Source: a virus. From it: a DNA stretch of 21,382 bases. Under the pieces are notes generated by a model. That model had not been told where the DNA came from. It did no database searches and worked only from the letters and a program-made list of their open reading frames with translations. A program made the translations under genes and the position numbers. The stretch covers positions 1-21,382 of the IMG/VR virus record IMGVR_UViG_3300032309_003238; one strand, given 5' to 3'. Positions 699 through 21,175 of the stretch are shown one piece after another (position 1 is the stretch's first letter; every line of letters begins with the position of its first letter).

Positions 699-1273
699 TG
701 GGACGACCAAAAAAAAGCAATGTGGCGGAAGATTATATTGACGATATTAAAGAAGAAAAAACAAGTCAATTAAATTTTGATAAAAAATCAGAATTAAAAA
801 ATGAAAGTCATGATGTTGCAAAAATTTCAATTATAGAATCTTTAGACTTGCTTCAAATACCGTATGACAAAGATGACTCCTTAGAAAAGTTAAGTTTAGC
901 TCTTAAAAACGGAACAGTGTCTATGATACAAGATGGTTCAGCCAATAAAGCTGATTCCGATTTTGAAATAAAAAAATGGGGCGGTAATACTGAAATTACC
1001 GACTTAGATTTTTTAAGACGTTTGCGTAAAATGGGTATTGATGTAAGATTTGTTCGTAAAATTATAAATTCACGCGACCCTTACGCACCTGCTCGCGTCA
1101 TTTTAACTGATGAACATCGCAATTTTACCGACAGACAAATACATGCAATTATTAGGACGCAAGGGCAGGGCGTAATTAATTATGATTTTAAAAAAGTTTG
1201 CCGAGAAGTTGGCAATCAACCGCCAACTAAAATAAATCACTCTTGTAACATGGACAGACATCTTATTAAGTAA
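698..1273 (+). CDS. Hypothetical protein upstream of portal, 191 aa
   Basis: The protein opens with MGRPKKSN, a basic GRPKK motif like the AT-hook-type starts of some DNA-binding phage proteins. A charged, poorly conserved-looking half of about 100 residues follows. The C-terminal half is more compact and basic (LRRLRKMGIDVRFVRKIINSRDPYAPARVILTDEHRNF in the central part). It ends with a Cys/His-containing tail (NHSCNMDRHLIK), but no complete zinc motif is present. Both ends overlap neighbours as TAATG, so it is coupled to the portal gene. I do not recognise the family. A small-terminase-like or portal-accessory role is possible but unproven. Confidence 0.6.
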   Translation: MGRPKKSNVAEDYIDDIKEEKTSQLNFDKKSELKNESHDVAKISIIESLDLLQIPYDKDDSLEKLSLALKNGTVSMIQDGSANKADSDFEIKKWGGNTEITDLDFLRRLRKMGIDVRFVRKIINSRDPYAPARVILTDEHRNFTDRQIHAIIRTQGQGVINYDFKKVCREVGNQPPTKINHSCNMDRHLIK

Positions 1274-3492
1274 TGAATAAAGCTAAAGGGCAAGGACGCT
1301 CTAAAAAAGCTTACAATAAAAATTCAATTTCTTTTAATCCAGAAGTTAAAGAAATTGAAGAAATGGCAGATTCTTGGGCGTCCGATTTTGCATCAAACAA
1401 TCTTCGTGGTCATGATGCCATTGATTTTGCAATTCATTTTAAACAATGGGACAGCCAAGTATCTTCTAATAGAAAAGTTAATGACAAAGAATGCCTGACA
1501 ATTAATTATCTTATAGCTTTACTTGATAAACTTATTAGTGCTTATCTTAAATATGACTTTAATTTAGATTTATCTCCAATTAACGAACAATTTACAGACG
1601 AATCAGAATTAAATTCTGCTCGTATGTTAATGCGTCATTTTTTTAATGAACAATCTAAAGCCGCTTTAATGGCTTGGATTAAATGCGCTCAATTTGGTTA
1701 TGCTTTTGTAGAATATGGAATAAATTACGAAGATAATAAAACTCTTAATAAAATACCTACGCTTACGTTTTATGAAGACCCTACAATCGCTTTTTGGGAT
1801 AAAACAGCTAAAAACCCAAACAAAGAAGATGGTCTTTATTGCGGTATAAAAATAAAATCATCTTATGATGAACTTGTGAATGCATACCCAGATATTAATC
1901 CTATTAAATTTGACTTAAAAGAAAATAACGAAATAATTCGATGCTGGTTTAGAAAAAAAGAATTAATTGATTACGTTATGATAGAAGGTGGTTCTTATAA
2001 GCGTTTAGATTGCTTATCTGATGATGACAAAATTTATTATGAAAATTATGCAGACGCAAAAACAAAAAGTAGTACAAAAGATTGTATTTATTACTCTTTA
2101 ATTATTAACAAACACAAATATATTGATTGTGTAAAAACACCTTTTGAAGATTTGCCCTTGCTCTACCATAACATGCAAACAAGATGGAGCAAAACCGGGG
2201 AAATAACTTATCCATTTACTTATCGTTTTGAAGACGCTCAAAAGTTTTTAAATTTAGGTGTGGCTCAACTTGGCACAATGCTTAAAAAGTCTTCTGCCAC
2301 TAAATTTTTATTAACTCCTTCACACTTATCAACAGACGAACAAATTGAAACGGCTAATGAAATTAGCACACGTGATGGAGCTATTTTGCTCGGAGAAAAC
2401 AGAGATGGTACAGGCTCTGGACGCGACCCCATTATTATACCAGCACCAGAAATACCCATTTCTATGCTGGAATCTGTAAAGCTTGGTAAAGTTCAAATTG
2501 AAGATTTAGGCGGTTCTTTTATAGATACGCAACAAGGGGGTAGGGTGATTGTATCTGGAAAAGCAATGGAAACTTTTTCAGAAAATACTTCGTTAAGTGA
2601 AAATTCAGTTTATATGCTGTCTGCTCAATTAACATTTTTAGAAACAATTTGTAAATTTAATCAAACTGTAATTCCTAAAATTATTACAGAAACACGTTTA
2701 ATACCAATTAAACAGCAAGACGGTTCAACCATTCATATTGGTGTAAATAAAGAGCTTGAAAGCGGAAAAATTTTAAATGATATGCGTTTTATTTCTAATT
2801 GCTTCCTTTACGAAGTTTCAGTAGGGCCTTCTGGCGAACAACAAAAACGTATTACGCTACAAAACTTAATGGCGTATTACTCCGCGCCCAGAACGCCAGA
2901 CTTTGAAAAAACAAAAGACATCTTCTCTAAAAATCTTAATATCTCAAATGCTAAAGAGTTTGAAATGCGTTTATCTGCTGATATGGACCAAGATTTAATA
3001 GATTATTCAAACGGAAAAATAAGCCTAGAAACTTATTTAAATAAAAAATCTCAACAACAACAAGCAGCAATGCAAAGTCAAATGCAAATGGCTCAAGCTC
3101 AAGCGCAAATGCAAGCTCAAACTGACCCCGAAGCAAAAGCTAATCAAGTATTGGCAGATGCTGAGACAGCCAAAGCGGCCGTTGATGGTTATCGAGCAGA
3201 AACAGATCGATACGAAGCTATTGCAAAAGCACAAGAAGCAACATTAAAAGCTTCAGTTGATTTAACAAAAGCCACTAATCAACAAATGTTAGGACAAGCT
3301 CAACATGAATTAAATGTAACAAATTCAATTATTGATTCAACAATTAAAGCGGCTGCTGATTCTATTCAAAACCCAGTTGCTGCGGCAGCTCAAAGACAAC
3401 AAATAAATCAAATGGCTCAAAATAATCAACAAGGTCAACCTCCAGAACCGCCTCAACCTGAGCAAGCACAACAACAACCATTAAGCCAATAA
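1273..3492 (+). CDS. Portal protein, P22 type
   Basis: The portal is the dodecameric ring at one capsid vertex. It serves as packaging channel, nucleation site for assembly and platform for tail attachment. At 739 aa it is close to the P22 portal (725 aa). It shows the family pattern of an N-terminal helical region followed by a wing/stem core, with FYEDPTIAFWDKTAK at about residues 166-180 marking the usual 'D(P)..FFDP.AK..D.SDA.YC' type segment. From about residue 591 the chain becomes extremely Gln/Ala-rich (QQQQAAMQSQMQMAQAQAQM), then heptad-like, then Gln/Pro-rich to the end. This matches the long helical 'barrel' at the C-terminus of P22-like portals. The gene starts inside the previous stop (TAATG). 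It is followed after 7 bases by the gp10-like gene instead of the scaffold. Confidence 0.85.
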   Translation: MNKAKGQGRSKKAYNKNSISFNPEVKEIEEMADSWASDFASNNLRGHDAIDFAIHFKQWDSQVSSNRKVNDKECLTINYLIALLDKLISAYLKYDFNLDLSPINEQFTDESELNSARMLMRHFFNEQSKAALMAWIKCAQFGYAFVEYGINYEDNKTLNKIPTLTFYEDPTIAFWDKTAKNPNKEDGLYCGIKIKSSYDELVNAYPDINPIKFDLKENNEIIRCWFRKKELIDYVMIEGGSYKRLDCLSDDDKIYYENYADAKTKSSTKDCIYYSLIINKHKYIDCVKTPFEDLPLLYHNMQTRWSKTGEITYPFTYRFEDAQKFLNLGVAQLGTMLKKSSATKFLLTPSHLSTDEQIETANEISTRDGAILLGENRDGTGSGRDPIIIPAPEIPISMLESVKLGKVQIEDLGGSFIDTQQGGRVIVSGKAMETFSENTSLSENSVYMLSAQLTFLETICKFNQTVIPKIITETRLIPIKQQDGSTIHIGVNKELESGKILNDMRFISNCFLYEVSVGPSGEQQKRITLQNLMAYYSAPRTPDFEKTKDIFSKNLNISNAKEFEMRLSADMDQDLIDYSNGKISLETYLNKKSQQQQAAMQSQMQMAQAQAQMQAQTDPEAKANQVLADAETAKAAVDGYRAETDRYEAIAKAQEATLKASVDLTKATNQQMLGQAQHELNVTNSIIDSTIKAAADSIQNPVAAAAQRQQINQMAQNNQQGQPPEPPQPEQAQQQPLSQ

Positions 3493-3499
3493 TTTAAAA

Positions 3500-4873
3500 A
3501 TGCCTTTTGCCCCTATACCTATTAACACAGGCACTGTTCCCGATTGGAATACCAGGTTTGGGTTTCCATCAATTAGAAACATGTTTGTAGGCTCTAGCGG
3601 CAATCTATACAGCACAGCAGGGTTAGATTCAATTGCCAATTTGTCAGGTGTTAGAGGTTTTTATGAAACAAAATACAATGGCGGCTCTTATTTTGCAGTT
3701 ACTAAAAATCAAATTTTAAATATTACTTACGGCGGTGCAATATTTTTAATTAAAAACATTTTAGACAGTAATTTGCCTGTTCAAATTGATGAAAATTTAA
3801 GAAATCAAATTGTTATTTCAGATTGCACAAATGGTTATGTTTATGACCAGCAAACTTCTGTTTTTACACAGTTATCTGCTGCCAATAATTTTGAAATAAC
3901 AAATCCCGTTTCTGTGATTGTTGTTAATAGTTTTGCAATATGGCTAGATGGCAAAACAGGGGTTTGGATATGGTCAAATCCTAATAATGCTATTGCTTAT
4001 AACCCATTAAATCAAAATCAAATTGACAACAATCTTTCCATTGGCATGGGACTTGAAAAACTAGAAAGTAATTTTTATATTTTTGGTTCAACGGGCATTG
4101 AAAGATGGCAGCCTACTTTAAGCAGTAATATATATATCTCTCCATTTCAAAAAGATACAAATTTTATGGTGGATTTTGGTGCTATTTCTACGGATTCAAT
4201 CATAAATTCAGTTAATAAAATTTATTTTCTTTCATCTCGTTATTTACCAATGGAAATAACAGCCTCTGGCTGGAATTATTTACCAAATTTATCACCAGAT
4301 AGCCCTATTTGTGTAGGTATTTCAAAAATAATTAGTGAATATCCTGATGTTAAACGCTGTTATGGTTCTTTTTACTCGTTTAGAGGCAATTTTTTTTATC
4401 ATCTTTCGTTTTTGCAAAGTGGTATTGCGTGGGTGTGGTGTGAATCATCACAAAAATGGGCACTAAGCGATGATTTAATAGTAGGCGCATCTCGCACAAG
4501 CGAATCAATTGCTTTGCAAGATGGAATTTATACTTTAACTTTGGCTCCAGCAAACATAAAAAGAGAATTAGTTTTAAAAAGACTGTGTGAAAATAAAAAA
4601 ATAGGAACGTTTAGAAATTTATTAAAAGGAGTTAGCCTTGATATTGTTCAAGGAAGTTCTCAATTTAATTTAAATCATGTGCAATTAGCAATTTCAAAAG
4701 ATTCACGGCAATGGCAAAACACAGTAAGTAGACCCATAGGAAAAACAGGTCAAACACAATGTCCGTTGCAATGGATGTGCGTTGTTTCGTTTAGGCATGA
4801 AATAACACTTAAATTTACTTTTTATGGAGAGTTAGATTTTGCCATAGAAGGTTGTAACGCTAATATAAATTAA
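3500..4873 (+). CDS. Packaged-DNA stabilisation protein (P22 gp10-like tail accessory factor)
   Basis: In P22, gp10 forms a ring below gp4 in the portal-tail complex and keeps packaged DNA in the head. This 457-aa protein is near gp10's 472 aa. It has the beta-propeller-like run of short strands seen in that family: RGFYETKYNGGSYFAVT, then DCTNGYVYD, then SIGMGLEKLESNFYIFGSTGIERW, then PFQKDTNFMVDFGAISTDSI. These match the family features 'RG.Y...G..Y.V', 'NG..GYVYD', 'E.WLFG..TTEVW' and 'PF....G....G..A..S'. No strong Shine-Dalgarno precedes the ATG, so translation may depend on coupling with the portal gene seven bases upstream. In P22 this gene lies after coat and gp4, whereas here it lies between portal and scaffold. 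Family assignment is from recall of motifs. Confidence 0.78.
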   Translation: MPFAPIPINTGTVPDWNTRFGFPSIRNMFVGSSGNLYSTAGLDSIANLSGVRGFYETKYNGGSYFAVTKNQILNITYGGAIFLIKNILDSNLPVQIDENLRNQIVISDCTNGYVYDQQTSVFTQLSAANNFEITNPVSVIVVNSFAIWLDGKTGVWIWSNPNNAIAYNPLNQNQIDNNLSIGMGLEKLESNFYIFGSTGIERWQPTLSSNIYISPFQKDTNFMVDFGAISTDSIINSVNKIYFLSSRYLPMEITASGWNYLPNLSPDSPICVGISKIISEYPDVKRCYGSFYSFRGNFFYHLSFLQSGIAWVWCESSQKWALSDDLIVGASRTSESIALQDGIYTLTLAPANIKRELVLKRLCENKKIGTFRNLLKGVSLDIVQGSSQFNLNHVQLAISKDSRQWQNTVSRPIGKTGQTQCPLQWMCVVSFRHEITLKFTFYGELDFAIEGCNANIN

Positions 4874-4887
4874 CAAGAGGAAATATT

Positions 4888-5625
4888 ATGTATCAACAAG
4901 ACGAACAGCAAATGCCAGAAGAACAAAATAACAATCAAATGCAAGAGCAAGAACAAATTCCAGAACAAGAAAATACAGGAAACGAAAACAATGAAGCCAG
5001 TAATGAAAAAAAATTTCATTCAATCGAGGAAGTAAAGGCTATCGTACAAAGGCGCGTTAATAAAGAAAGAAAAGACAAAGAAGCTTTAGTTGCTGAAAAT
5101 GCCGCACTTAAAGAACTTTCTTTGCAAAAAGATGAATTGCTGAAAAAAGCACAGGCAAATCAGATTAGTCCAGAAGATTTTCAGCAAGCAATGCATTATG
5201 TTAACAAAGCTGCCGATCAAAAAGCAGCAGAACAATACAACATGATGACACAAAAACAAAATAATGAAGCATTGGGCGCAAAACTTGAAAACGCATGCAA
5301 AGAAGACCCTGAATTTGCTCAATTAATTCAAGATGCGGAAAAGACGCCAGAAGACCATCGAGTTTTTAATGCTTTAGCTCAAATGAATTACATTCCAAAT
5401 ATTGCGGCAGTAGCTAAGCAACTCTTATCAGATCAATCAGATTTAGATATTGCCAGAGCCGCATCTTCTTTTGAGCTTAGAAAATATATCAAGGAAATAA
5501 GTGATAAGTTAGCTGTTAAAAAACCAGGCCCTAATCAATACAATGTTGAGCCAATTATCAAAGGCTCTAATCAAACGTATGGTTTTGACAATAAATCCTA
5601 TTTAAAAGAAAAAGGACTTATTTAA
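4888..5625 (+). CDS. Scaffolding protein
   Basis: Scaffold proteins line the procapsid interior, direct coat assembly and leave before DNA packing. This 245-aa protein fits in place (immediately before coat) and in composition. It has a Gln/Glu/Asn-rich disordered N-terminus (about residues 1-40). A charged helical region with coiled-coil character follows (VKAIVQRRVNKERKDKEALV, then ALKELSLQKDELLKKAQ), with more helices to about residue 210. The short basic C-terminal segment (YLKEKGLI) could contact coat, as the basic helix-turn-helix tail does in P22 scaffold. It is somewhat shorter than P22 gp8 (303 aa). The AGAGGA site before the ATG is adequate. Function is called from position and composition, not from a diagnostic motif. 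Confidence 0.75.
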   Translation: MYQQDEQQMPEEQNNNQMQEQEQIPEQENTGNENNEASNEKKFHSIEEVKAIVQRRVNKERKDKEALVAENAALKELSLQKDELLKKAQANQISPEDFQQAMHYVNKAADQKAAEQYNMMTQKQNNEALGAKLENACKEDPEFAQLIQDAEKTPEDHRVFNALAQMNYIPNIAAVAKQLLSDQSDLDIARAASSFELRKYIKEISDKLAVKKPGPNQYNVEPIIKGSNQTYGFDNKSYLKEKGLI

Positions 5626-5629
5626 ATAC

Positions 5630-5658
5630 TTGACATTTTTGCTAATAATTGAAATAAT
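5630..5658 (+). promoter_or_regulatory. Sigma70-type promoter for the coat leader
   Basis: TTGACA (5630-5635) is a perfect -35 box. Seventeen bases later comes AATAAT (5653-5658), five of six matches to the -10 consensus. It begins just after the scaffold stop and 226-254 bases before the coat ATG, so transcription would start near 5665 and give a leader of about 220 nt. It is the best promoter match I see in the window and would let the coat gene be expressed above the rest of the operon. Confidence 0.7.
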
Positions 5659-5698
5659 GTTTTTGACCACAAAGTCTATAAACTTGAGTATTGATTTT

Positions 5699-5757
5699 AA
5701 AGTTTAAGAAAACTATAAATTCTCAAGCCTTTACCGGCTCGTCTCCTCGACGCTAAA
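5699..5757 (+). repeat. Coat-leader tandem repeat, copy 1
   Basis: This 59-base unit starts AAAGTTTAAG and ends CGTCTCCTCGACGCTAAA. It can fold as three small hairpins: AGTTT/AAACT around AAGA (5701-5714), AGCC/GGCT around TTTACC (5726-5739), and CGTC/GACG around TCCTC (5740-5752). TCCTCGA (5744-5750) is the perfect complement of TCGAGGA in the coat Shine-Dalgarno region (5873-5879). The two ends are nearly identical to copy 2, while the middle differs. Confidence 0.8.
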
Positions 5758-5761
5758 TTGG

Positions 5762-5822
5762 AAAGTTTAAGGAAACTATAAACCCTCACGGCTTACATCG
5801 GCCCCGTCTCCTCGACGCTAAA
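5762..5822 (+). repeat. Coat-leader tandem repeat, copy 2
   Basis: This 61-base unit has the same order of elements as copy 1: AGTTT/AAACT around AAGG (5764-5777), a variable GC-rich centre that can pair ACGG with CCGT or GGC with GCC, and CGTC/GACG around TCCTC (5805-5817). The final 18 bases are identical to copy 1. The hairpin stems are kept while the first loop and the centre vary, as expected if RNA shape matters. TCCTCGA recurs at 5809-5815. Confidence 0.8.
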
Positions 5823-5824
5823 AG

Positions 5825-5868
5825 GTAAATGATGAAACGTTGCATTAATAGCAATTATTTACTTTTTT
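5825..5868 (+). terminator. Terminator-like or attenuator hairpin before coat
   Basis: GTAAATGA (5825-5832) pairs with TTATTTAC (5855-5862), including one G-U pair. Inside it, TTGC (5840-5843) pairs with GCAA (5851-5854). Six T residues follow directly (5863-5868). This is the form of an intrinsic terminator, though AT-rich and with an internal bulge. It lies between the leader promoter and the coat ribosome site (GAGGAA, 5875-5880). If active, it would cut off coat transcription unless relieved. It may instead be an RNA-stability or translation-control hairpin. Confidence 0.45.
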
Positions 5869-5883
5869 AACTTCGAGGAAATT

Positions 5884-7191
5884 ATGACAGTCACATTAAA
5901 TCAATCTGTAGTAACCAATTTTGTAGCTCGCCAAATGGGTGAGTTTCACGAAAATGCTTTTTCAATTCTTCGCACAGCAAATCGCAAATACGAAGAAATT
6001 TTTAACGATTCACAATCAAAAGGATTTGCTCCAGGTAGTACCGTTAACATTAAAATTCCAGGTTATCCAGGAGTGTCAACAGGTCTTACTGTAACAACCC
6101 CAACAGCAATTAACGATGTTGTTATTCCGTTTGTTATTACTGAGCAAGATATTTACAACGTAACTTATCAATGGAATTTATATCAATACAAACTAAACTT
6201 GGTTGGCGGTAAAGATGCTTTAACAGGCGACATGGAACGTGCTTTAGTTGATAACTATGCATTTCCAGCTCATCAAGCCATGGCAACAGCGCAAGAACAA
6301 GTTGCTGCGTATCGATTAGAAACGTCTGCTTTTTATTGTCATATTAATAAACCTTCAGAAATGTCTAGTTTGACTAGCTGGTCAACCATTCAGCAAATTA
6401 ACAAGAAAATGACTCGTTACGAGTTTCAATTTCAAGACAGATTTATGCTAATGAATCTTGATGATGCGGCCAGCGTTGCTAGCTCACTTCAAAACATGTT
6501 TAACCAACAAATCAATGAAAAAATTACTAAAACTGCGTATGTTGGCGGAGAAAAGAACGGTACATTATTGGCAGGATTAAATTTATTTCAATCTAACCAA
6601 ATCAATGTTCATACTTCTGGCGCATTATCAAACGCAACTCAATACCCAACTATTACAGTCGGTAGTGTTTCTTCTGATGGAATGGAAATTACATTATCAG
6701 TAGGTGGCACTTCATCTGCTAAACTTGTTAATGCTGGTGATTTGTTTGCAATTCCTAGTGTTTACTTGTTAAAACCAATTGAATTTGCTCCAACAAATGA
6801 CACGCTTGTAGTGACAGCACAACAAGATGCTTTTGGTGACGGCGCAGGAAACGTAACAATTAAATTGCCTTATCCGCTAATGATTATGGGGATGAATGCA
6901 AACGTTGAATCATTGCCAGCTCCTGGCGCAGCCGTTGAAGCTTTTCCAGCTACCTTTAATAACAACTATTGCTATGTTCCTTCTGGTCTTAGCATGGTGC
7001 CTGTTCCAATGGGCGAAGTGTACGGTGCTGATAATTCTAAAACAATTGGTCGCGGTAACCCCAACATTCCCGTTAGTGTTTACGCACAAGGTTTTATTCT
7101 TGAGCTTTCTAACATTTTCCGTATTTCACAAATGCTCGGAATCTGTGCGTTTGCGCCTTACGTAATGCGTGTTCCAACCTTAATAGTGTAA
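5884..7191 (+). CDS. Major capsid (coat) protein, P22 gp5 type
   Basis: This forms the icosahedral shell. The 435-aa length matches P22 coat (430 aa), and its place after scaffold is as expected. Visible features include an N-terminal helix (NFVARQMGEFHENAFSILRTANRKYEEIF) and a beta-rich stretch with SKGFAPGSTVNIKIPGYPGV. The central region is helix-rich (residues about 115-150 and 190-225). A strand-rich segment at about residues 240-330 may be the inserted domain of P22-like coats. The C-terminus (FILELSNIFRISQMLGICAFAPYVMRVPTLIV) parallels the P22 end with its IALWYG..ATRPEAI pattern. The start has a good GAGGAA site. The gene has its own promoter and leader upstream and a hairpin terminator downstream, so it appears to be a separately controlled unit. 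Confidence 0.82.
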   Translation: MTVTLNQSVVTNFVARQMGEFHENAFSILRTANRKYEEIFNDSQSKGFAPGSTVNIKIPGYPGVSTGLTVTTPTAINDVVIPFVITEQDIYNVTYQWNLYQYKLNLVGGKDALTGDMERALVDNYAFPAHQAMATAQEQVAAYRLETSAFYCHINKPSEMSSLTSWSTIQQINKKMTRYEFQFQDRFMLMNLDDAASVASSLQNMFNQQINEKITKTAYVGGEKNGTLLAGLNLFQSNQINVHTSGALSNATQYPTITVGSVSSDGMEITLSVGGTSSAKLVNAGDLFAIPSVYLLKPIEFAPTNDTLVVTAQQDAFGDGAGNVTIKLPYPLMIMGMNANVESLPAPGAAVEAFPATFNNNYCYVPSGLSMVPVPMGEVYGADNSKTIGRGNPNIPVSVYAQGFILELSNIFRISQMLGICAFAPYVMRVPTLIV

Positions 7192-7197
7192 TCAAAA

Positions 7198-7236
7198 ATC
7201 CCTAGAAAGAAATCTTTTTAGGGATAAAAAATTTTT
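7198..7236 (+). terminator. Terminator-like hairpin after coat
   Basis: ATCCCTAGAAAG and its partner CTTTTTAGGGAT form a 12-base-pair stem (7198-7225) with one G-U pair and a four-base loop. It is followed by six A and five T residues (7226-7236). On the + strand the T-run is offset from the stem by the As; on the - strand the stem is followed at once by TTTT. It starts six bases after the coat stop and would limit read-through into the tail genes. Confidence 0.6.
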
Positions 7237-7253
7237 AATAATAGGTGCTAATA

Positions 7254-8153
7254 ATGAGCTATCAAAATATAAATATTGCTTCTCCAAGGTCTGGTATTTA
7301 CGCAAGTTATCAAGACATTTATAACCAAATGACACAAAATAATGTTTTTGAATTTATTCCTGGTTCATCTTCTGTTGCTATTCCAAAAGTTGGATCTGAA
7401 CCAAAAATTACTTTAACTGGTTTTGGTACTTGTAGCTTAAGAGGCGCAATGACAATAACTGGAACAACAACTGCTAAAAATTCTGTATTAGGTAAGTTGC
7501 CAAAAGGATTATTTGCTATTCAAAATTTTTTCTTTCCTGTTTCTTGTTATGACGTTATTAACAATGATTTTTACCAAAATACTTTATTAATTTCGGGTGT
7601 AGATGTTTCAGTAACTGGCGCAACAATTTTAAGCGCAACAATAGTAAATGCGGGATCGTTTGTAACTATTCCTACTATTACTGTACAAGGAAACGGTACT
7701 GGCGCAGTTGTTTCAATTGATGCAATGCAACTTAAAACCGCAACTTTACAAAATTCTGGCACGGGATACGCTGTAAATGATGTTTGGCGAGATTTAGACG
7801 GCGGTCAAATAAGAGTTAATAGTATTGGCGCGGGAGGTTCTATTGCTACTTATAGTATTTTAGCACCTGGCGTTTATATGAATTTGCCATCAAACCCAGT
7901 CCCCCAGACTTCTACAACTGGATCGGGTACTGGAGCAACGTTCAATATGACGTGGGAATTGGCTGCCGTTAGGGTTTCTCCTAACATGGGATATGACCCT
8001 GCAAAAACAACTATTGTGGCTAATGGTGGTGTTCAACTTAATCCTGTTTTTTCTAATCCTTCAATAAATTCTATTGTTTTATGTAACGCAAGTAAGAATG
8101 TTGGAGACATTATTTACATAGATACACCCCCTATTTTATTAAAGCCATATTAA
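7254..8153 (+). CDS. Minor structural protein with Gly-rich beta repeats, 299 aa
   Basis: I take the ATG at 7254, which follows an AGGTG site at 7243-7247. A GTG at 7245 is in frame but overlaps that site. Three imperfect repeats are visible at about residues 127-155, 161-190 and 197-233. Each has a strand, an N-[SA]-G-[ST]-G-Y or similar turn, another strand and a G-x-G-[TS]-G-A segment (TVQGNGTGAVVSI, LQNSGTGYAVND, TTGSGTGATFNM). This 'GSGYt.PtV...G.G.Ga' pattern is common in phage fibre and capsid-decoration proteins. Position straight after coat suggests a head decoration or head-completion protein. No specific family is recognised. Confidence 0.65.
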   Translation: MSYQNINIASPRSGIYASYQDIYNQMTQNNVFEFIPGSSSVAIPKVGSEPKITLTGFGTCSLRGAMTITGTTTAKNSVLGKLPKGLFAIQNFFFPVSCYDVINNDFYQNTLLISGVDVSVTGATILSATIVNAGSFVTIPTITVQGNGTGAVVSIDAMQLKTATLQNSGTGYAVNDVWRDLDGGQIRVNSIGAGGSIATYSILAPGVYMNLPSNPVPQTSTTGSGTGATFNMTWELAAVRVSPNMGYDPAKTTIVANGGVQLNPVFSNPSINSIVLCNASKNVGDIIYIDTPPILLKPY

Positions 8154-8162
8154 TGAGGGTTT

Positions 8163-8849
8163 ATGTTAGTTGATTCTTTGGTTTCGTCATGTATTTCAAA
8201 TGCGGGCTTGCAAGATAAACAACTTGAGCCTGCAATTGACGGCGGTGTACAACAAGAAACGCTAGACGAGTTAAATTTATTGTTTGACTCTTGGCGTTCT
8301 TATATACCGTATGCCTCAGTATTTAACTTTACAAATTACGAACAATTAAAAAACACGCAATTTGTTAGCGTTGACATGGTGTCGTTTGTTTTTTCTGGCA
8401 AAACTGTTCAACAACCATTGCGTCCTGTGGATTTAACAAAATGGGTTGAATTAACCTCAATAATAAATTTATCGGGCATACCGCAAATTTATTATTTTGA
8501 CCCTCAATATCAAACCATTTTGGTTTATCCCGTTCCTTCCGTTCCAAATTATGAATTTATTGTATGGGGGAGGCCTGCTATTGGTCCGCTAAAACTTGGC
8601 CAAGAATTACCACCTCAAGTGCCTAACTTTATGATTGACGCTTTGCAATACGAAGGCGGCTTTAGGATGGCATCTAAATATCGCGTTGAATGGAGCCCAG
8701 AGCTAGAAAAGCTCAGAGATGAAAGTTATAACACGCTTAAATCACAACGCGTTATTGCGCTTTCGCCGCGTATAAATACAATTTTTAAATCAAGAAATTC
8801 TAGCGGCTCTTTTCCATTTCTTTATTTTGCCTCTGGAGGGAGGTCTTAA
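8163..8849 (+). CDS. Head-tail connector, P22 gp4-like tail accessory factor
   Basis: P22 gp4 binds below the portal as a ring and starts tail assembly. This 228-aa protein begins with a helical region (LVSSCISNAGLQDKQLEPAI, then DELNLLFDSWRSY) typical of gp4-like and gp6-like connectors, where the text runs 'L.....LG......P..........AL..LN.ML..W'. A strand-rich middle has IPQIYYFDPQYQTILVYPVP, similar to the 'P..yyy.p......l.l.P.P' core of these proteins. A C-terminal helix includes the typical R-x-A-x-K-Y-x-V segment (FRMASKYRVEWSPELEKL). P22 gp4 is 166 aa, so this version is longer. The ribosome site is GAGGG at 8155-8159. The downstream gene overlaps its stop as TAATG. Confidence 0.72.
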   Translation: MLVDSLVSSCISNAGLQDKQLEPAIDGGVQQETLDELNLLFDSWRSYIPYASVFNFTNYEQLKNTQFVSVDMVSFVFSGKTVQQPLRPVDLTKWVELTSIINLSGIPQIYYFDPQYQTILVYPVPSVPNYEFIVWGRPAIGPLKLGQELPPQVPNFMIDALQYEGGFRMASKYRVEWSPELEKLRDESYNTLKSQRVIALSPRINTIFKSRNSSGSFPFLYFASGGRS

Positions 8850-9169
8850 TGAGTTACAACACAAATCAGCCTACCGCATTAGTTGCACCCAATGGGTCAG
8901 ACCCACAAGAAATAAAAGCGTGGATGTCTACGTTGTGCACTTTTATTAATAATCAAATGGCTTCTGGCACACAAGCTACCTTTATGACCACTGCAAAGCT
9001 TGCGGAAATGGTTTCTAATAATGACCATTCACAGGCAGGAAAACATTTTTTTAATCAAGAAACAAATAAACCAATGGTTTCCTATATTTCAAGTGGAAAC
9101 CTTGTAATTGCACCTATTACGACATCTTTTGAAGAAAGAATTATGCCACAAGAGGTGAAAAATGTTTAG
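8849..9169 (+). CDS. Hypothetical virion-region protein, 106 aa
   Basis: The ATG overlaps the previous stop (TAATG) and is served by a strong purine-rich site, GGAGGGAGG (8835-8843). The protein is polar and probably soluble. It has a helical segment (DPQEIKAWMSTLCTFINNQM, residues 19-38) and an aromatic/charged middle. It holds the position that gp14, a 172-aa head-assembly protein, has before gp7 in P22, but I see no similarity that proves equivalence. It overlaps the next gene's start by eight bases. Confidence 0.6.
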   Translation: MSYNTNQPTALVAPNGSDPQEIKAWMSTLCTFINNQMASGTQATFMTTAKLAEMVSNNDHSQAGKHFFNQETNKPMVSYISSGNLVIAPITTSFEERIMPQEVKNV

Positions 9170-9857
9170 TGGAATTGGTAATGCGGTAATGGGGCTTTTT
9201 GGCGATCAAAGTGGTGGATTTAATAATTACGCTGATCAAATGCGGCAACAATCACAAGCCTATAATCCTTATATCAACAGAGGTAATGCGGCAGGAGATA
9301 GGCAAGCTTTTCTTTCTGACTGGCTTACAAAAAACCCAAATGCTTTACAAGACCAAATAGCCAGCGGTTATCAAATGTCACCGTATCAAAATAATCTGCT
9401 AGACACCGTCACAAATCGAATGAATATGAACGCGGCTAATACTGGAATGCTTCGCAGTCCTTTAGCTCAAAAAGCTTTAAACGATCAAGCAAACACCATG
9501 ACGGGTCAATTTATGAATGACTACGTAAACAGAGGCGAAAACAATTTTGGCCTTGGCATGCAAAATTACGGAATGATGAACACCCTTGGCATGCAAGGCT
9601 TAACAGGACAATCAGATTTATTGCAACAAGCAGCAGGTGCAAACTTAAAAGCCGATCAATCAAGACAAAACGCAATTAGCAGTATGCTTGGATTAGGCGC
9701 AGGCATAGGCTTAAATATGTTAATACCAGGTGCTGGCGCAGCAATGGGTGTTGCAAACAGTTCGGGTGGATTTCAAGGAGCAGGCAGTTTAAACCCTAAT
9801 GTGGGTGGATGGACGGGAACGCCAAGCTCATCAAGCATTATGAGGATGTTCGGATGA
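9162..9857 (+). CDS. DNA-ejection protein, gp7-like (internal virion protein)
   Basis: Ejection proteins are packed in the head and enter the host envelope with the DNA, making a channel across it. The protein is 231 aa against 229 aa for P22 gp7 and is first in a gp7-gp20-gp16-like trio. It is rich in Asn, Gln, Gly and Met, with repeated N/G/M motifs (NTGMLRSPLAQKALNDQ, then NFGLGMQNYGMMNTLGMQG). A hydrophobic Gly/Ala stretch near residues 173-196 (SMLGLGAGIGLNMLIPGAGA) could insert into membrane. The ribosome site is AGAGGTG. Size, order and composition support the call; I did not find a diagnostic motif. Confidence 0.65.
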   Translation: MFSGIGNAVMGLFGDQSGGFNNYADQMRQQSQAYNPYINRGNAAGDRQAFLSDWLTKNPNALQDQIASGYQMSPYQNNLLDTVTNRMNMNAANTGMLRSPLAQKALNDQANTMTGQFMNDYVNRGENNFGLGMQNYGMMNTLGMQGLTGQSDLLQQAAGANLKADQSRQNAISSMLGLGAGIGLNMLIPGAGAAMGVANSSGGFQGAGSLNPNVGGWTGTPSSSSIMRMFG

Positions 9858-11281
9858 TGAATTCATACGCAAGGTACGGAATATGGGGTGAAAACCCAAA
9901 CGGAACTTCTATTGTTGATACCGCTTTTAATACAAATAAAGCTATTAATGACCTGTTTACTCAAAAAAACAATTTGGCTATGGGGCAAATGCTTAACCAG
10001 CAAATGCAGCAAAATTTAAATCTTGGCAATTTAGGGTATCAACAAAAACAAATGGAAGTAAACAACCTTCCTTTTCAACAGGATATTGCGAATAAAATGT
10101 CGCAAATTGGACTTGATTCCGCGCAATCAAATTTTAACTATACGCCACAGCAAAGAGCGATAGCAGAGCAGGCCGCTCGAGATAAAAGCAATCTTGAAAA
10201 CTCTCAAGCCGGATATTACAAAGCTCAATCTGGCGTCGATGCAATGAAAGACCCAGCGGCTTATTTCCAAAGCCTTTTAGATCAATACAATTCGGCACTT
10301 CAAGGCTCTTCTAAAAAATTATTTCTTGGCCACATGCTTGCAAATATGAGCGGAGATGATGGCGGCGTTATGTCTATGGCAATGCCAGGCGGTACAAAAG
10401 GCGCAGCAGGTGTCAATATGGCTATGGGTGGCGCAGGCGGCTCAACTGGCGCGGGCGGAGCGTTGAATGTGCCTCGAATTGGGCCAGATGGAATGATAAT
10501 CAATCCGGGAACCGTTAGCTCTAAATCAAACAGAGGGATGCAATATGCCGGCATAGATTCTAATGGAAATCCTGCTACGTATTCATCGCCAACAATGGCA
10601 AACACCACAGCAAACAATAATAGAATAGCATCTGAACAAGAAGCGCGAGTTTTTGCAGAGCCTGTTTTATCAGGCGTTCAGCCTTATCAAGGAGCTTATT
10701 TTGGCCCAAATTCACAAATAATAAAAGATGATGTTTTATCATATTTTGGAAATCAAAATGCTAAAACAAGACTAGACAATTTAGCTTTTGCTTTAAAATC
10801 AGCACCCGAAGCTGCAGGCATGATTGGGAGAATGACAAAAGGAGGGGAGGTTGGCGAAGGTGTTTTAAATCAACTTCAAGATTCTTTAAAGCAGGGCACA
10901 CCTTCAGAATTTTTTCTTAAACATGGCATACCACAATCTTCTTTAAAATACGCCTCAGACAAATATTTAGATTTACAAAACAAAGCTGTTGAAGCAGCTG
11001 TTAATGCAGAAAGAAATAATTACAAAATAAATTCCTTAGGATTACCAGATTATGCACAAACGCAACCCAAAAAATTAAGTTCTTTTGTAAGAAATGCAAT
11101 GACACCAGAGCAAATTGCTCAATATGAAGCGCAACAAGCTCAAAATAATCCTAAACAACCACCAACACAAAATTCAAATATTCCTGATGACGACACTCTT
11201 AAATCTATTGCTGCAAACAATAATATGGCAATTGAAGATGTATTAAAAAGGGCTAAAGCTCTTTTTGGAAATAATAAATAA
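9854..11281 (+). CDS. DNA-ejection protein, gp20-like (internal virion protein)
   Basis: I start at the ATG at 9854, which overlaps the previous TGA and has a GAGG site at 9842-9845. A second ATG follows at once (9857), and the longer frame from 9809 would overlap the previous gene by 49 bases. The 475-aa product matches P22 gp20 in length (471 aa) and order. The first half is Gln/Asn-rich and helical. A Gly-rich stretch follows (about residues 170-210: MSMAMPGGTKGAAGVNMAMG, then GGAGGSTGAGGALN). The second half is more mixed, with a Gln/Pro/Asn-rich linker and a helical end. Called from order, length and composition. Confidence 0.62.
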   Translation: MMNSYARYGIWGENPNGTSIVDTAFNTNKAINDLFTQKNNLAMGQMLNQQMQQNLNLGNLGYQQKQMEVNNLPFQQDIANKMSQIGLDSAQSNFNYTPQQRAIAEQAARDKSNLENSQAGYYKAQSGVDAMKDPAAYFQSLLDQYNSALQGSSKKLFLGHMLANMSGDDGGVMSMAMPGGTKGAAGVNMAMGGAGGSTGAGGALNVPRIGPDGMIINPGTVSSKSNRGMQYAGIDSNGNPATYSSPTMANTTANNNRIASEQEARVFAEPVLSGVQPYQGAYFGPNSQIIKDDVLSYFGNQNAKTRLDNLAFALKSAPEAAGMIGRMTKGGEVGEGVLNQLQDSLKQGTPSEFFLKHGIPQSSLKYASDKYLDLQNKAVEAAVNAERNNYKINSLGLPDYAQTQPKKLSSFVRNAMTPEQIAQYEAQQAQNNPKQPPTQNSNIPDDDTLKSIAANNNMAIEDVLKRAKALFGNNK

Positions 11282-16225: not shown

Positions 16226-16244
16226 TAAAAAAGAGGAAAAACAA

Positions 16245-16343
16245 ATGAGCAATCCAGATTTAAAACAAATTTATGACGGGAATCCTTCAACAACGTTACC
16301 AGATACAGCGTTAATGTATTCTTTTCTTCCGCCTTACGGCAAC
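16245..16343 (+). repeat. Duplicated N-terminal module, copy 1
   Basis: The first 99 bases of this gene match bases 16846-16944 with 11 differences by my count (about 89 percent identical). Most differences are silent or conservative in the protein. The similarity begins just before the ATG (AAACAAATGAGC in both) and fades after codon 33. Confidence 0.85.
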
Positions 16344-16808: not shown

Positions 16809-16845
16809 TAAATAAAATTATTAAAAACATAAAGAGAGCAAACAA

Positions 16846-16944
16846 ATGAGCAATCCAAATTTAAAACAAATATACGACAGAAATCCTTCAACAACTTTAC
16901 CAGATACAGCATTAATGTATTCTTTTCTTTCGCCTTACGAAAAT
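16846..16944 (+). repeat. Duplicated N-terminal module, copy 2
   Basis: Partner of the 99-base unit at 16245-16343, with about 89 percent identity by direct comparison. Copy and original are 601 bases apart and in the same orientation, with unrelated sequence after each. Confidence 0.85.
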
Positions 16945-19575: not shown

Positions 19576-19721
19576 TTGAACATCCCAAATTCAAACCACT
19601 ATTCTTCCCGTATTAGGCAAACATTTAAATGAAAATATCAGTTTTTCGCCTAAAAATCAAAGAAGTTTAATAAAAAAAGAGCCTAATCGGCCGCAATTAT
19701 GTATTCAAGCACTGAACTATC

Positions 19722-19734
19722 TTGGGTCACCCAA
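19722..19734. promoter_or_regulatory. Palindrome TTGGGTCACCCAA
   Basis: A perfect 6+1+6 palindrome in the gene-free region. Its size fits a small dimeric repressor site, but there is no flanking promoter that I can identify. Confidence 0.35.
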
Positions 19735-19766
19735 TAACTTTTAGCTTCTTTTATTAAAATCTCGCA

Positions 19767-19787
19767 AAGCAAGTCATTTACTTGCTT
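19767..19787. repeat. Inverted repeat AAGCAAGT/ACTTGCTT
   Basis: A perfect 8-base stem with a CATTT loop. No T-run follows closely on either strand. Confidence 0.45.
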
Positions 19788-19803
19788 CTCTTCGCATAAG
19801 TCT

Positions 19804-19836
19804 TGTGGAAAATCTGTAGAAAACCTGTAGAAAATT
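19804..19836 (+). repeat. Three tandem 11-base repeats
   Basis: TGTGGAAAATC, TGTAGAAAACC and TGTAGAAAATT follow one another without gaps, at one helical turn each. The first unit is one base from a DnaA-box core (TGTGGATAA). They end 63 bases before the next gene's ATG. Confidence 0.6.
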
Positions 19837-19850
19837 TGTCGCTCCTTTAG

Positions 19851-19884
19851 TTATGAAACACAGCAATCACGCTGAGTTTCATAA
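19851..19884. promoter_or_regulatory. Interrupted palindrome before the helix-turn-helix gene
   Basis: TTATGAAAC (19851-19859) and GTTTCATAA (19876-19884) are perfect complements. Inside them, CAGC pairs with GCTG, with an A-A mismatch between and a six-base centre. It ends just before the GGAG ribosome site of the gene at 19900. It could be an operator for that gene's product or an RNA hairpin at its start. Confidence 0.55.
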
Positions 19885-19899
19885 TTACTGGAGAAGCAA

Positions 19900-20118
19900 A
19901 TGACAATAAATAACACGTTACTGAACCCCACAAAATATATCCCCATCCCCCAATGGAACAACCACCATGAATGGCCGCCCCAAGGTGGTTTACGCCATCT
20001 AGTTTTCAATGCTGATAAAAACGGCTTTAAGAAAGTAATTCGCCGTGTAGGTCGCCGTGTACTGATTGACGAAGCAGCTTTTTTTCAATGGGTTGCTGAG
20101 AATGGAGGGCAGACTTAA
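19900..20118 (+). CDS. Small helix-turn-helix DNA-binding protein, excisionase/MerR-like, 72 aa
   Basis: A CTGGAGAAGC ribosome site precedes the ATG. The N-terminal 25 residues are polar and Pro/Asn-rich (PIPQWNNHHEWPPQGG). Residues about 29-68 form a winged helix-turn-helix of the small excisionase/MerR-like type: GLRHLVFNADKNGFKKVIRR, then VGRRVLIDEAAFFQWV, with a basic recognition part and the 'GRR.LIDE..F..W' wing typical of AlpA/Xis relatives. Such proteins control phage lysogeny or excision, or regulate small gene sets in mobile elements. The large palindrome just upstream may be its own target. The stop overlaps a very short frame (TAATG). No integrase is in the window. Confidence 0.72.
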   Translation: MTINNTLLNPTKYIPIPQWNNHHEWPPQGGLRHLVFNADKNGFKKVIRRVGRRVLIDEAAFFQWVAENGGQT

Positions 20119-20165
20119 TGAACAACAAAAATCTGTACCCTAACGCTGCGATAGGCAGCACATGA
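20118..20165 (+). CDS. Very short frame coupled to the HTH gene, possible remnant
   Basis: The ATG overlaps the previous TAA (TAATG), and a GGAGGG site (20104-20109) lies at a good distance. The frame gives only MNNKNLYPNAAIGST before a TGA. GCTGC/GCAGC (20145-20159) can pair within it. It is either the truncated start of a lost downstream gene or a chance frame. I cannot choose between these on sequence alone. Confidence 0.25.
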   Translation: MNNKNLYPNAAIGST

Positions 20166-20752: not shown

Positions 20753-20846
20753 ACATATTTTTTATTGATTATTATTTTTTTCCTGTTTGTTTTTCAAAAT
20801 CTAGGTCACTCCTTATCACGGGTAAGCATTCTCCCTGTTTTCCAGA

Positions 20847-20897
20847 CAGAAATCCCCTATAAAAACTCATATGAAATTCCATGGGGATTTCTGCCCC
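20847..20897 (+). promoter_or_regulatory. Leader with alternative hairpins before AlpA gene
   Basis: CAGAAATCCCC (20847-20857) and GGGGATTTCTG (20883-20893) are perfect 11-base complements with a 25-base loop. The same GGGG (20883-20886) can instead pair with CCCC at 20894-20897 around ATTTCTG. The two pairings exclude each other. The region lies 72-122 bases before the AlpA-type ATG. Confidence 0.5.
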
Positions 20898-20968
20898 AGT
20901 ATTGCTTAATTTTTCCTGTCTTTCCTGATAGCCTTCTGCATACCCAAAAACTAATATGGAGATTAATA

Positions 20969-21175
20969 ATGACCAGTAATAAGTTTCACAGACTACAGAA
21001 TGTAATTGAGATTGCAGGTGTTAGCCCCAGCACTCTATGGAGAATGGAACAAAGCGGACAATTTCCTAAGAGAATAAAAATAGGTCAACGGGCAGTAGGT
21101 TGGCTTAGCTCGGAAATTGAGAATTGGCTAAAAGGTAAGCATGTGGATGGAGGTAATCAAAATGGAGCAAATTAA
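20969..21175 (+). CDS. AlpA-family transcriptional regulator, 68 aa
   Basis: I start at the ATG at 20969, with an ATGGAGATT site (about 20956-20964). The longer frame from 20765 runs through the structured leader and has no site. The product is a classic AlpA-type winged helix-turn-helix: FHRLQNVIEIAGVSPSTLWR, then MEQSGQFPKRIKIGQRAVGW, then EIENWL. The family pattern is 'R...V....G.S.STlyR....G.FPk..kiG.R.vgW...Ei..Wl'. AlpA-type proteins act as regulators in prophages and their satellites, often activating excision or integrase genes. It lies head-on to the SSB-like gene on the other strand, with a hairpin between. No integrase is in view. Confidence 0.82.
   Translation: MTSNKFHRLQNVIEIAGVSPSTLWRMEQSGQFPKRIKIGQRAVGWLSSEIENWLKGKHVDGGNQNGAN

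Follow-up and report, generated by a model that had tools for sequence, protein, structure and literature searches.

A candidate default-OFF translation switch in the leader of a phage major capsid gene, predicted from hairpins that carry an anti-Shine-Dalgarno sequence

The DNA analyzed here, referred to as the window, is a complete virus record from IMG/VR, 21,382 bases long. Its block of structural genes includes portal, head closure and major capsid (coat) genes, as well as an open reading frame (ORF) without match in the position of the scaffold gene (Table 1). The gap between scaffold and coat measures 258 bases in the window and approximately 193 in two relatives, L003 and L004. A sigma-70-type promoter begins four bases 3' of the scaffold stop codon, with hexamers that are unchanged in both relatives, although the spacer is altered in L004. 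This was the sole strong promoter in a sigma-70 scan, and it sits upstream of the entire leader. Given its position, the coat leader RNA would span about 5665–5883, so that a transcript made as drawn would carry a leader of about 220 nt in the window and about 155 nt in the relatives.

Table 1. Genes and predicted leader elements in the window (OFF and ON, proposed closed and open states; SD, Shine-Dalgarno).
Feature	Position	Strand	Remarks
Portal	1273–3492		phrog_156
Head closure Hc3	3500–4873		phrog_578
ORF in scaffold position	4888–5625		No match
Sigma-70-type promoter, TTGACA-17-AATAAT	5630–5658	+	11/12 consensus matches
5' hairpin, GAC-CACAAA-GUC	5665–5676	+	Near inferred transcript start; predicted fold; kept as GACCCCAAAGTC in L003/L004
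Unit 1 (upstream copy)	5696–5757	+	Tandem repeat; helix 1, helix 2, hairpin 3; no second copy in L003/L004
Unit 1 helix 1	AGAA 5707–5710 / UUCU 5720–5723	+	
Unit 1 helix 2	AGCC 5726–5729 / GGCU 5736–5739	+	
Unit 1 hairpin 3, CGUC-UCCUC-GACG	5740–5752	+	Holds reserve anti-SD UCCUCGA, 5744–5750
Unit 2 (SD-proximal copy)	5758–5822	+	Helix 1, helix 2, hairpin 3; counterpart of single unit in L003/L004
Unit 2 helix 1	AGG 5770–5772 / CCU 5784–5786	+	
Unit 2 helix 2	GGCU 5790–5793 / GGCC 5800–5803	+	
Unit 2 hairpin 3, CGUC-UCCUC-GACG	5805–5817	+	Proposed ON form; predicted P 0.7–0.94 before SD is transcribed
Anti-SD UCCUCGA	5809–5815	+	5' arm of OFF helix; same in L003 and L004
AU-rich stem, AAAAGGUAAAU...AUUUACUUUUUU	5820–5868	+	Would juxtapose anti-SD and SD; nearly invariant
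SD region UCGAGGA	5873–5879	+	3' arm of OFF helix; invariant in three phages
GAC at/after AUG	5886–5888	+	Predicted pairing with GUC 5806–5808 extends OFF helix round start codon
Major capsid (coat) gene	5884–7191	+	phrog_283 major head protein, E = 2e-23; gene presumed controlled

The leader of the window contains a 63–65 nt tandem repeat (units 1 and 2), followed by an AU-rich stem and the coat Shine-Dalgarno (SD) region. The first-pass annotation had reported TCCTCGA in both repeats, each time within CGTC-TCCTC-GACG, and its exact complement TCGAGGA as the coat SD region, and the sequence confirms all of these at the positions in Table 1, with the coat ATG at 5884. The AU stem also contains AAAAGG-UAA-AUGAUG (region 5829–5870 in the window; 1526 in L003; 2947 in L004). 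In the window, this opens a 13-codon ORF that ends just before the SD, whereas in L003 and L004 the AUG is in frame with coat, giving 18 extra residues, MMKFALIAIIYFFNFE[ED]I; the shift in frame is due to a 1-nt indel. The ORF is possibly a uORF or a means of coupling, with a frame that is not conserved.

Close coat genes occurred in only two IMG/VR contigs, L003 (100% amino acid identity) and L004 (96%), and a terminase scan for intermediate relatives retrieved none between 96% and about 35–44% identity. Both contigs retain the promoter, leader, hairpin, AU stem and SD, with a single unit each. A loss of loop-SD complementarity in related phages had been named beforehand as evidence against regulation, and L003 and L004 both keep the match; the description of the complement as present twice in conserved loops holds for the window, while each relative has it in one unit. 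Because both relatives carry one unit, the tandem arrangement is particular to the lineage of the window. CTCA and GACGC, common to units 1 and 2, stand where the relatives have CTAACA and GACGT, a pattern that fits duplication within that lineage.

Along positions 4240–10188 of the window, identity to L003 changes abruptly from 94% to 98.6% where the two units meet (5756/5757), and about 540 bases (19607–20150) are without match in the genome G001; judged from these two features, the window and its relatives appear to be mosaic genomes. Repeated 5' ends of adjacent, tail-fibre-like genes sharing MSNPxLKQIY...NPSTTLP were observed at 16230–16338 and 16831–16943 and at the equivalent places in G001 and G002, and the MSNPxLKQIY repeats cross-match between genomes, as if recombining. 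At about 23660–24385 of G001 (reverse complement), a single stretch of G002 (26335–26602) is matched several times with overlaps, which suggests an internal repeat array in G001. An AlpA-type regulator, a RecT/Bet recombinase and a DUF3799 PD-(D/E)XK nuclease lie at 20765–21175 of the window and 9275–10886 (minus strand) of L129. For Bet, the nearest relatives come from phages of Gammaproteobacteria and from a Salmonella sequence, which gives a hint of the host group.

In 74 distant coat relatives, the gap 5' of coat was 27 nt in the median and at most 150 nt, and the 69 with a scorable SD had a mean opening energy of 2.9 kcal/mol (maximum 7.8). These short gaps and low opening energies indicate that the leader is specific to a small group of three phages. 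Rfam 15 gave no match at gathering score in the whole window and chance-level matches only in the leader at a relaxed threshold. The exact hairpin pattern, searched in viral and genome contigs, was real only in L003 and L004, the other occurrences being without the unit and mostly in GC-rich unrelated sequence, and a helix 1 pattern scan of viral contigs likewise retrieved L003 and L004 only. Searches with blastn against phages and plasmids returned chance AT-rich matches, and the phage collection otherwise gave no sequence match to the leader. The model search proposed by the first-pass annotation recovered the unit in L003 and L004 and nothing convincing elsewhere among 146 sequence sources, distant coat and terminase relatives included; the best further match, L146 (E 0.28), was rejected since the hairpin is missing. 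Scanning 369 genomes from a single bacterial class with the unit model likewise gave no convincing match, and when the coat gene was searched for within one class of genomes, only a 26% relative was found. Consistent with the earlier remark that no leader of this form had been described, our literature search, mainly of open-access literature, found none before a capsid gene. A similar SD context was observed in L106, L108 and L109 (TTCGAGGAAAT), and in part in L117 and L121, all without the leader, so the SD may be older than the anti-SD.

The caution that a seven-base match can arise by chance was borne out. When the leader was shuffled with its dinucleotides preserved, a 7-nt complement spanning GAGGA arose in 4.8% of cases for the window, 2.4% for L003 and 2.3% for L004, and counting any 7-mer within 16 nt 5' of the ATG gave chance values of 9–15%. 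The plus strand of the window has only one other TCGAGGA, at 5024 within the scaffold gene, and TCCTCGA and TCGAGGA each occur once per genome on the coat strand of L003 and L004, in the leader. By itself, the 7-mer match is weak and mildly surprising.

Predicted folding was far more distinctive. Energies were computed with ViennaRNA using 37 °C parameters for protein-free and pseudoknot-free RNA, whereas real conditions in the host may differ, and alternative states were examined via folding constraints on the native sequence only. The SD was predicted to pair with the SD-proximal UCCUCGA at a probability of 0.94–0.99 in the window, L003 and L004, and opening GAGGA would cost 8.2, 11.2 and 11.2 kcal/mol, respectively. 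With shuffled upstream sequence, the mean opening cost was 3.4–3.8 kcal/mol (sd about 1.5), and values as high were reached in 1/300, 0/300 and 0/300 shuffles; other window genes with a recognizable SD had costs of 0.7–4.4 kcal/mol, and each of the 69 scorable distant coat relatives likewise fell below the three leaders. Unlike the bare 7-mer match, the joint SD closure is extreme in these predictions. The AU-rich stem alone contributes about −10 kcal/mol in all three phages, and the GUC/GAC extension of the SD helix is part of each minimum free energy (MFE) fold. In L003 and L004, the resulting duplex runs on into the AU stem with hardly a break (local MFE −26.5 kcal/mol), while in the window a change from GUUAAAA to GCUAAAA interrupts the stem and leaves an internal loop, which accounts for the weaker predicted lock there.

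Given that UCCUCGA is common to hairpin 3 and the SD helix, the two predicted structures are mutually exclusive. In simulated growing transcripts, hairpin 3 dominates (P 0.5–0.94) before the SD emerges, and the SD helix, which we call the OFF helix, is predicted at P of at least 0.93 once the SD has been transcribed; in local folds, this OFF form is 9–12 kcal/mol more stable than the hairpin (ON) form, a gap that would be large for a ligand and counts against a switch. When the unit 2 hairpin was forced in the window, the UCCUCGA of unit 1 took the SD at P 0.97, and when both hairpins were forced, neither copy paired with the SD. Even with hairpins forced, the SD was predicted to be partly paired elsewhere (0.60–0.78; 0.78 in the window with both held). 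We rejected an RNA thermometer, given that the SD helix is predicted not to melt (GAGGA unpaired <2.1% across 10–50 °C), and an intrinsic terminator or attenuator, of which the leader scan found none (d'Aubenton-type score about −15 to −16).

The first-pass idea of an RNA switch in which loops act on the SD is partly supported by computation, in altered form. The pairing is kept in both relatives and closes the SD in three predicted folds, and the hairpin and SD are strongly conserved. The SD is predicted to pair not through a loop-loop kiss but with an opened hairpin, whose strand exchange gives a 7-bp helix that stacks on the AU stem. Two competing loops are dispensable in L003 and L004, where one unit suffices, and in constrained folds the two window copies act as redundant locks. 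A role of the loops as decoys mimicking the 16S anti-SD is not supported: the loop has only CUCCU in common with it, and the partner in cis accounts for the complementarity.

Between L003 and L004, 1 of 81 sites differs from hairpin 3 to the AUG, compared to 149 of 1308 in the coat gene (p = 0.0014) and 123 of 435 coat third codon positions (p = 1e-9), and conservation joins the AU stem, anti-SD and SD into a single block. When the four units are compared, no block but hairpin 3 is free of change (0/13 variable positions versus 20/53 elsewhere, p = 0.006). The CGUC arm is invariant too, though the OFF helix uses only part of it, and hairpin 3 of unit 1 is preserved although it is not the predicted primary partner of the SD. 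Helix 1 has an A-U pair in two units, unit 1 and that of L004, where unit 2 and the L003 unit have G-C, and helix 2 has A-U in three units and G-C in unit 2. These two pairs with two-sided compensatory changes come from four unit sequences in three phages, two of them close, and the covariation score, which 20 of 500 shuffles matched, refers to a structure picked by RNAalifold on the same alignment; structures slid by 1–3 columns scored below the observed value. Hairpin 3 and the SD helix are invariant, and what they offer is conservation without covariation support.

We lean toward the interpretation, with modest confidence, that the coat leader is a cis-acting, default-OFF translation switch in which mutually exclusive structures sequester or release the SD. 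The promoter right after the scaffold gene would yield a leader with one or two units of ~63 nt, each consisting of two small helices and then the invariant CGUC-UCCUC-GACG hairpin, with the AU stem and coat SD downstream. In the ON state, UCCUCGA would occupy the loop and 3' side of the unit hairpin and leave the SD largely free; in the OFF state, it would pair with the SD as the 7-bp UCCUCGA-UCGAGGA helix, which would stack on the AU stem and close round the AUG. The hairpin would form first during transcription, and as the SD emerges the more stable OFF helix would invade it, such that coat would be translated in a brief window before folding or while the unit or units are held as hairpins, with a protein, a small molecule or cleavage of the duplex as candidate releasers. 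In the window, unit 1 would be a second lock that closes the SD if unit 2 is held open and, given that either copy alone can close the SD, both would have to be held. Such switching may occur in cells and would then gate the timing or dose of coat. With a strong promoter of host type driving a late structural gene, a gate of this kind would be plausible. Against the interpretation, tight SD closure on the most abundant virion protein would be odd unless something opens the SD. A more specific proposal, which we regard as unlikely but worth stating, is that the ~63-nt unit represents a new class of phage RNA sensor for a late-infection signal, such as free coat or scaffold protein, that would release the coat SD and, where duplicated, form a two-lock AND gate.

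The strongest rival, which we consider unlikely, is that RNase III binds or cuts the duplex of anti-SD, SD and AU stem and thereby frees the coat SD, the units being structural flanks and not sensors. There are precedents for RNase III in lambda N and cIII and in T7. The nearly continuous OFF helix of L003 and L004, at −26.5 kcal/mol, is long enough in principle, but the window stem is broken by its internal loop, and the invariance of hairpin 3 and the CGUC arm in unit 1 would be left unexplained. The opening of a closed ribosome binding site (RBS) by processing is standard in type I toxin mRNAs (PMC11228461). It is less probable again that repression is static, with the helix fixing low coat translation against a strong promoter and hairpin 3 being a folding intermediate only. 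The far greater stability of OFF over ON, its insensitivity to temperature between 10 and 50 °C and the lack of a match to any known aptamer agree with this, yet static repression has no need for ~60-nt units with compensatory changes or for a retained second unit, and a virion requires hundreds of coat copies.

We consider it very improbable that the complementarity is a coincidence in a leader conserved for other reasons, such as binding of coat, scaffold or a host protein to hairpin 3 or mRNA stabilization. The chance probability of the 7-mer (2–5%), the sharing of the match by three phages through descent and the presence of CGAGGA at the SD of the leaderless distant relatives L106, L108, L109 and L117 are what such a reading would draw on, but the joint SD closure is extreme and conservation spans the AU stem, anti-SD and SD together. 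Least probable of all is a scheme like that of T4 gene e, in which long transcripts would be closed and a short open one would start from a late promoter within the leader, for which there is precedent in T4 e, soc, 49 and I-TevI (PMC3014915) and an extremely conserved anti-SD-to-SD spacer, but the spacer has no sigma-70 site, its motifs are not repeated beyond shuffles in the three genomes, and the only strong promoter is upstream of the whole leader. Within the AU stem, too, the sigma-70 scan and the repeated-motif search in three genomes found no late promoter, while another promoter type is possible.

Promoters, gene order and protein feedback are the usual explanations for how tailed DNA phages control their capsid protein. 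If the switch interpretation is true, this conserved leader would lock the coat ribosome site once in two phages and twice in a third, a naturally occurring example of RNA locks placed in series on the virion protein that is produced in the largest amount. The unit model can be used to find the same element in other metagenomes, and the predicted leader states are directly testable with short reporter constructs.

Phage mRNAs are known to be controlled through sequestration of the SD, as in T4 genes e, soc, 49 and I-TevI, late or lytic genes in which, as proposed here, an SD or AUG in a cis helix blocks 30S binding (PMC3014915). As in gene e, the SD is predicted to be closed in the long coat transcript (P of at least 0.94). 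In the T4 leaders, however, a late promoter inside the 5' strand yields lock-free transcripts, whereas no such promoter was found in the 5' strand of the coat lock, and the coat promoter is upstream of everything; also unlike the T4 leaders, the coat anti-SD resides in a separate invariant hairpin that is duplicated in the window. Access to the ribosome site also depends on RNA structure in the leaders of lambda cIII and lambda N, through two alternative folds or a stem bound by RNase III, although the genes and sequences are different and these leaders have no repeated unit. The MS2 maturation-gene leader has a folded upstream complement that closes the SD, allowing translation only briefly after synthesis; MS2 is, however, an RNA phage, and its leader is without an alternative local hairpin unit carrying compensatory changes. 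Translational riboswitches have a 5'-leader domain in which an anti-SD is either masked or paired with the SD, and can occur as tandem copies before one expression platform. The coat leader shares with them, by computation, a mutually exclusive anti-SD hairpin and SD helix, but it matches no Rfam family, was found in three phages only and precedes a capsid gene rather than one of metabolism. Riboswitches are rare in phages, an example being the glutamine motif in Melnitz (PMC9004378). The timP type I toxin mRNA similarly adopts either a fold that sequesters the RBS or one that permits translation (PMC11228461), the two being mutually exclusive as proposed for the coat leader, but it is a toxin-antitoxin mRNA under antisense RNA control, unrelated in sequence and context. 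By analogy, the coat leader would work like known phage leaders such as those of T4 gene e and lambda cIII, to which it is unrelated in sequence.
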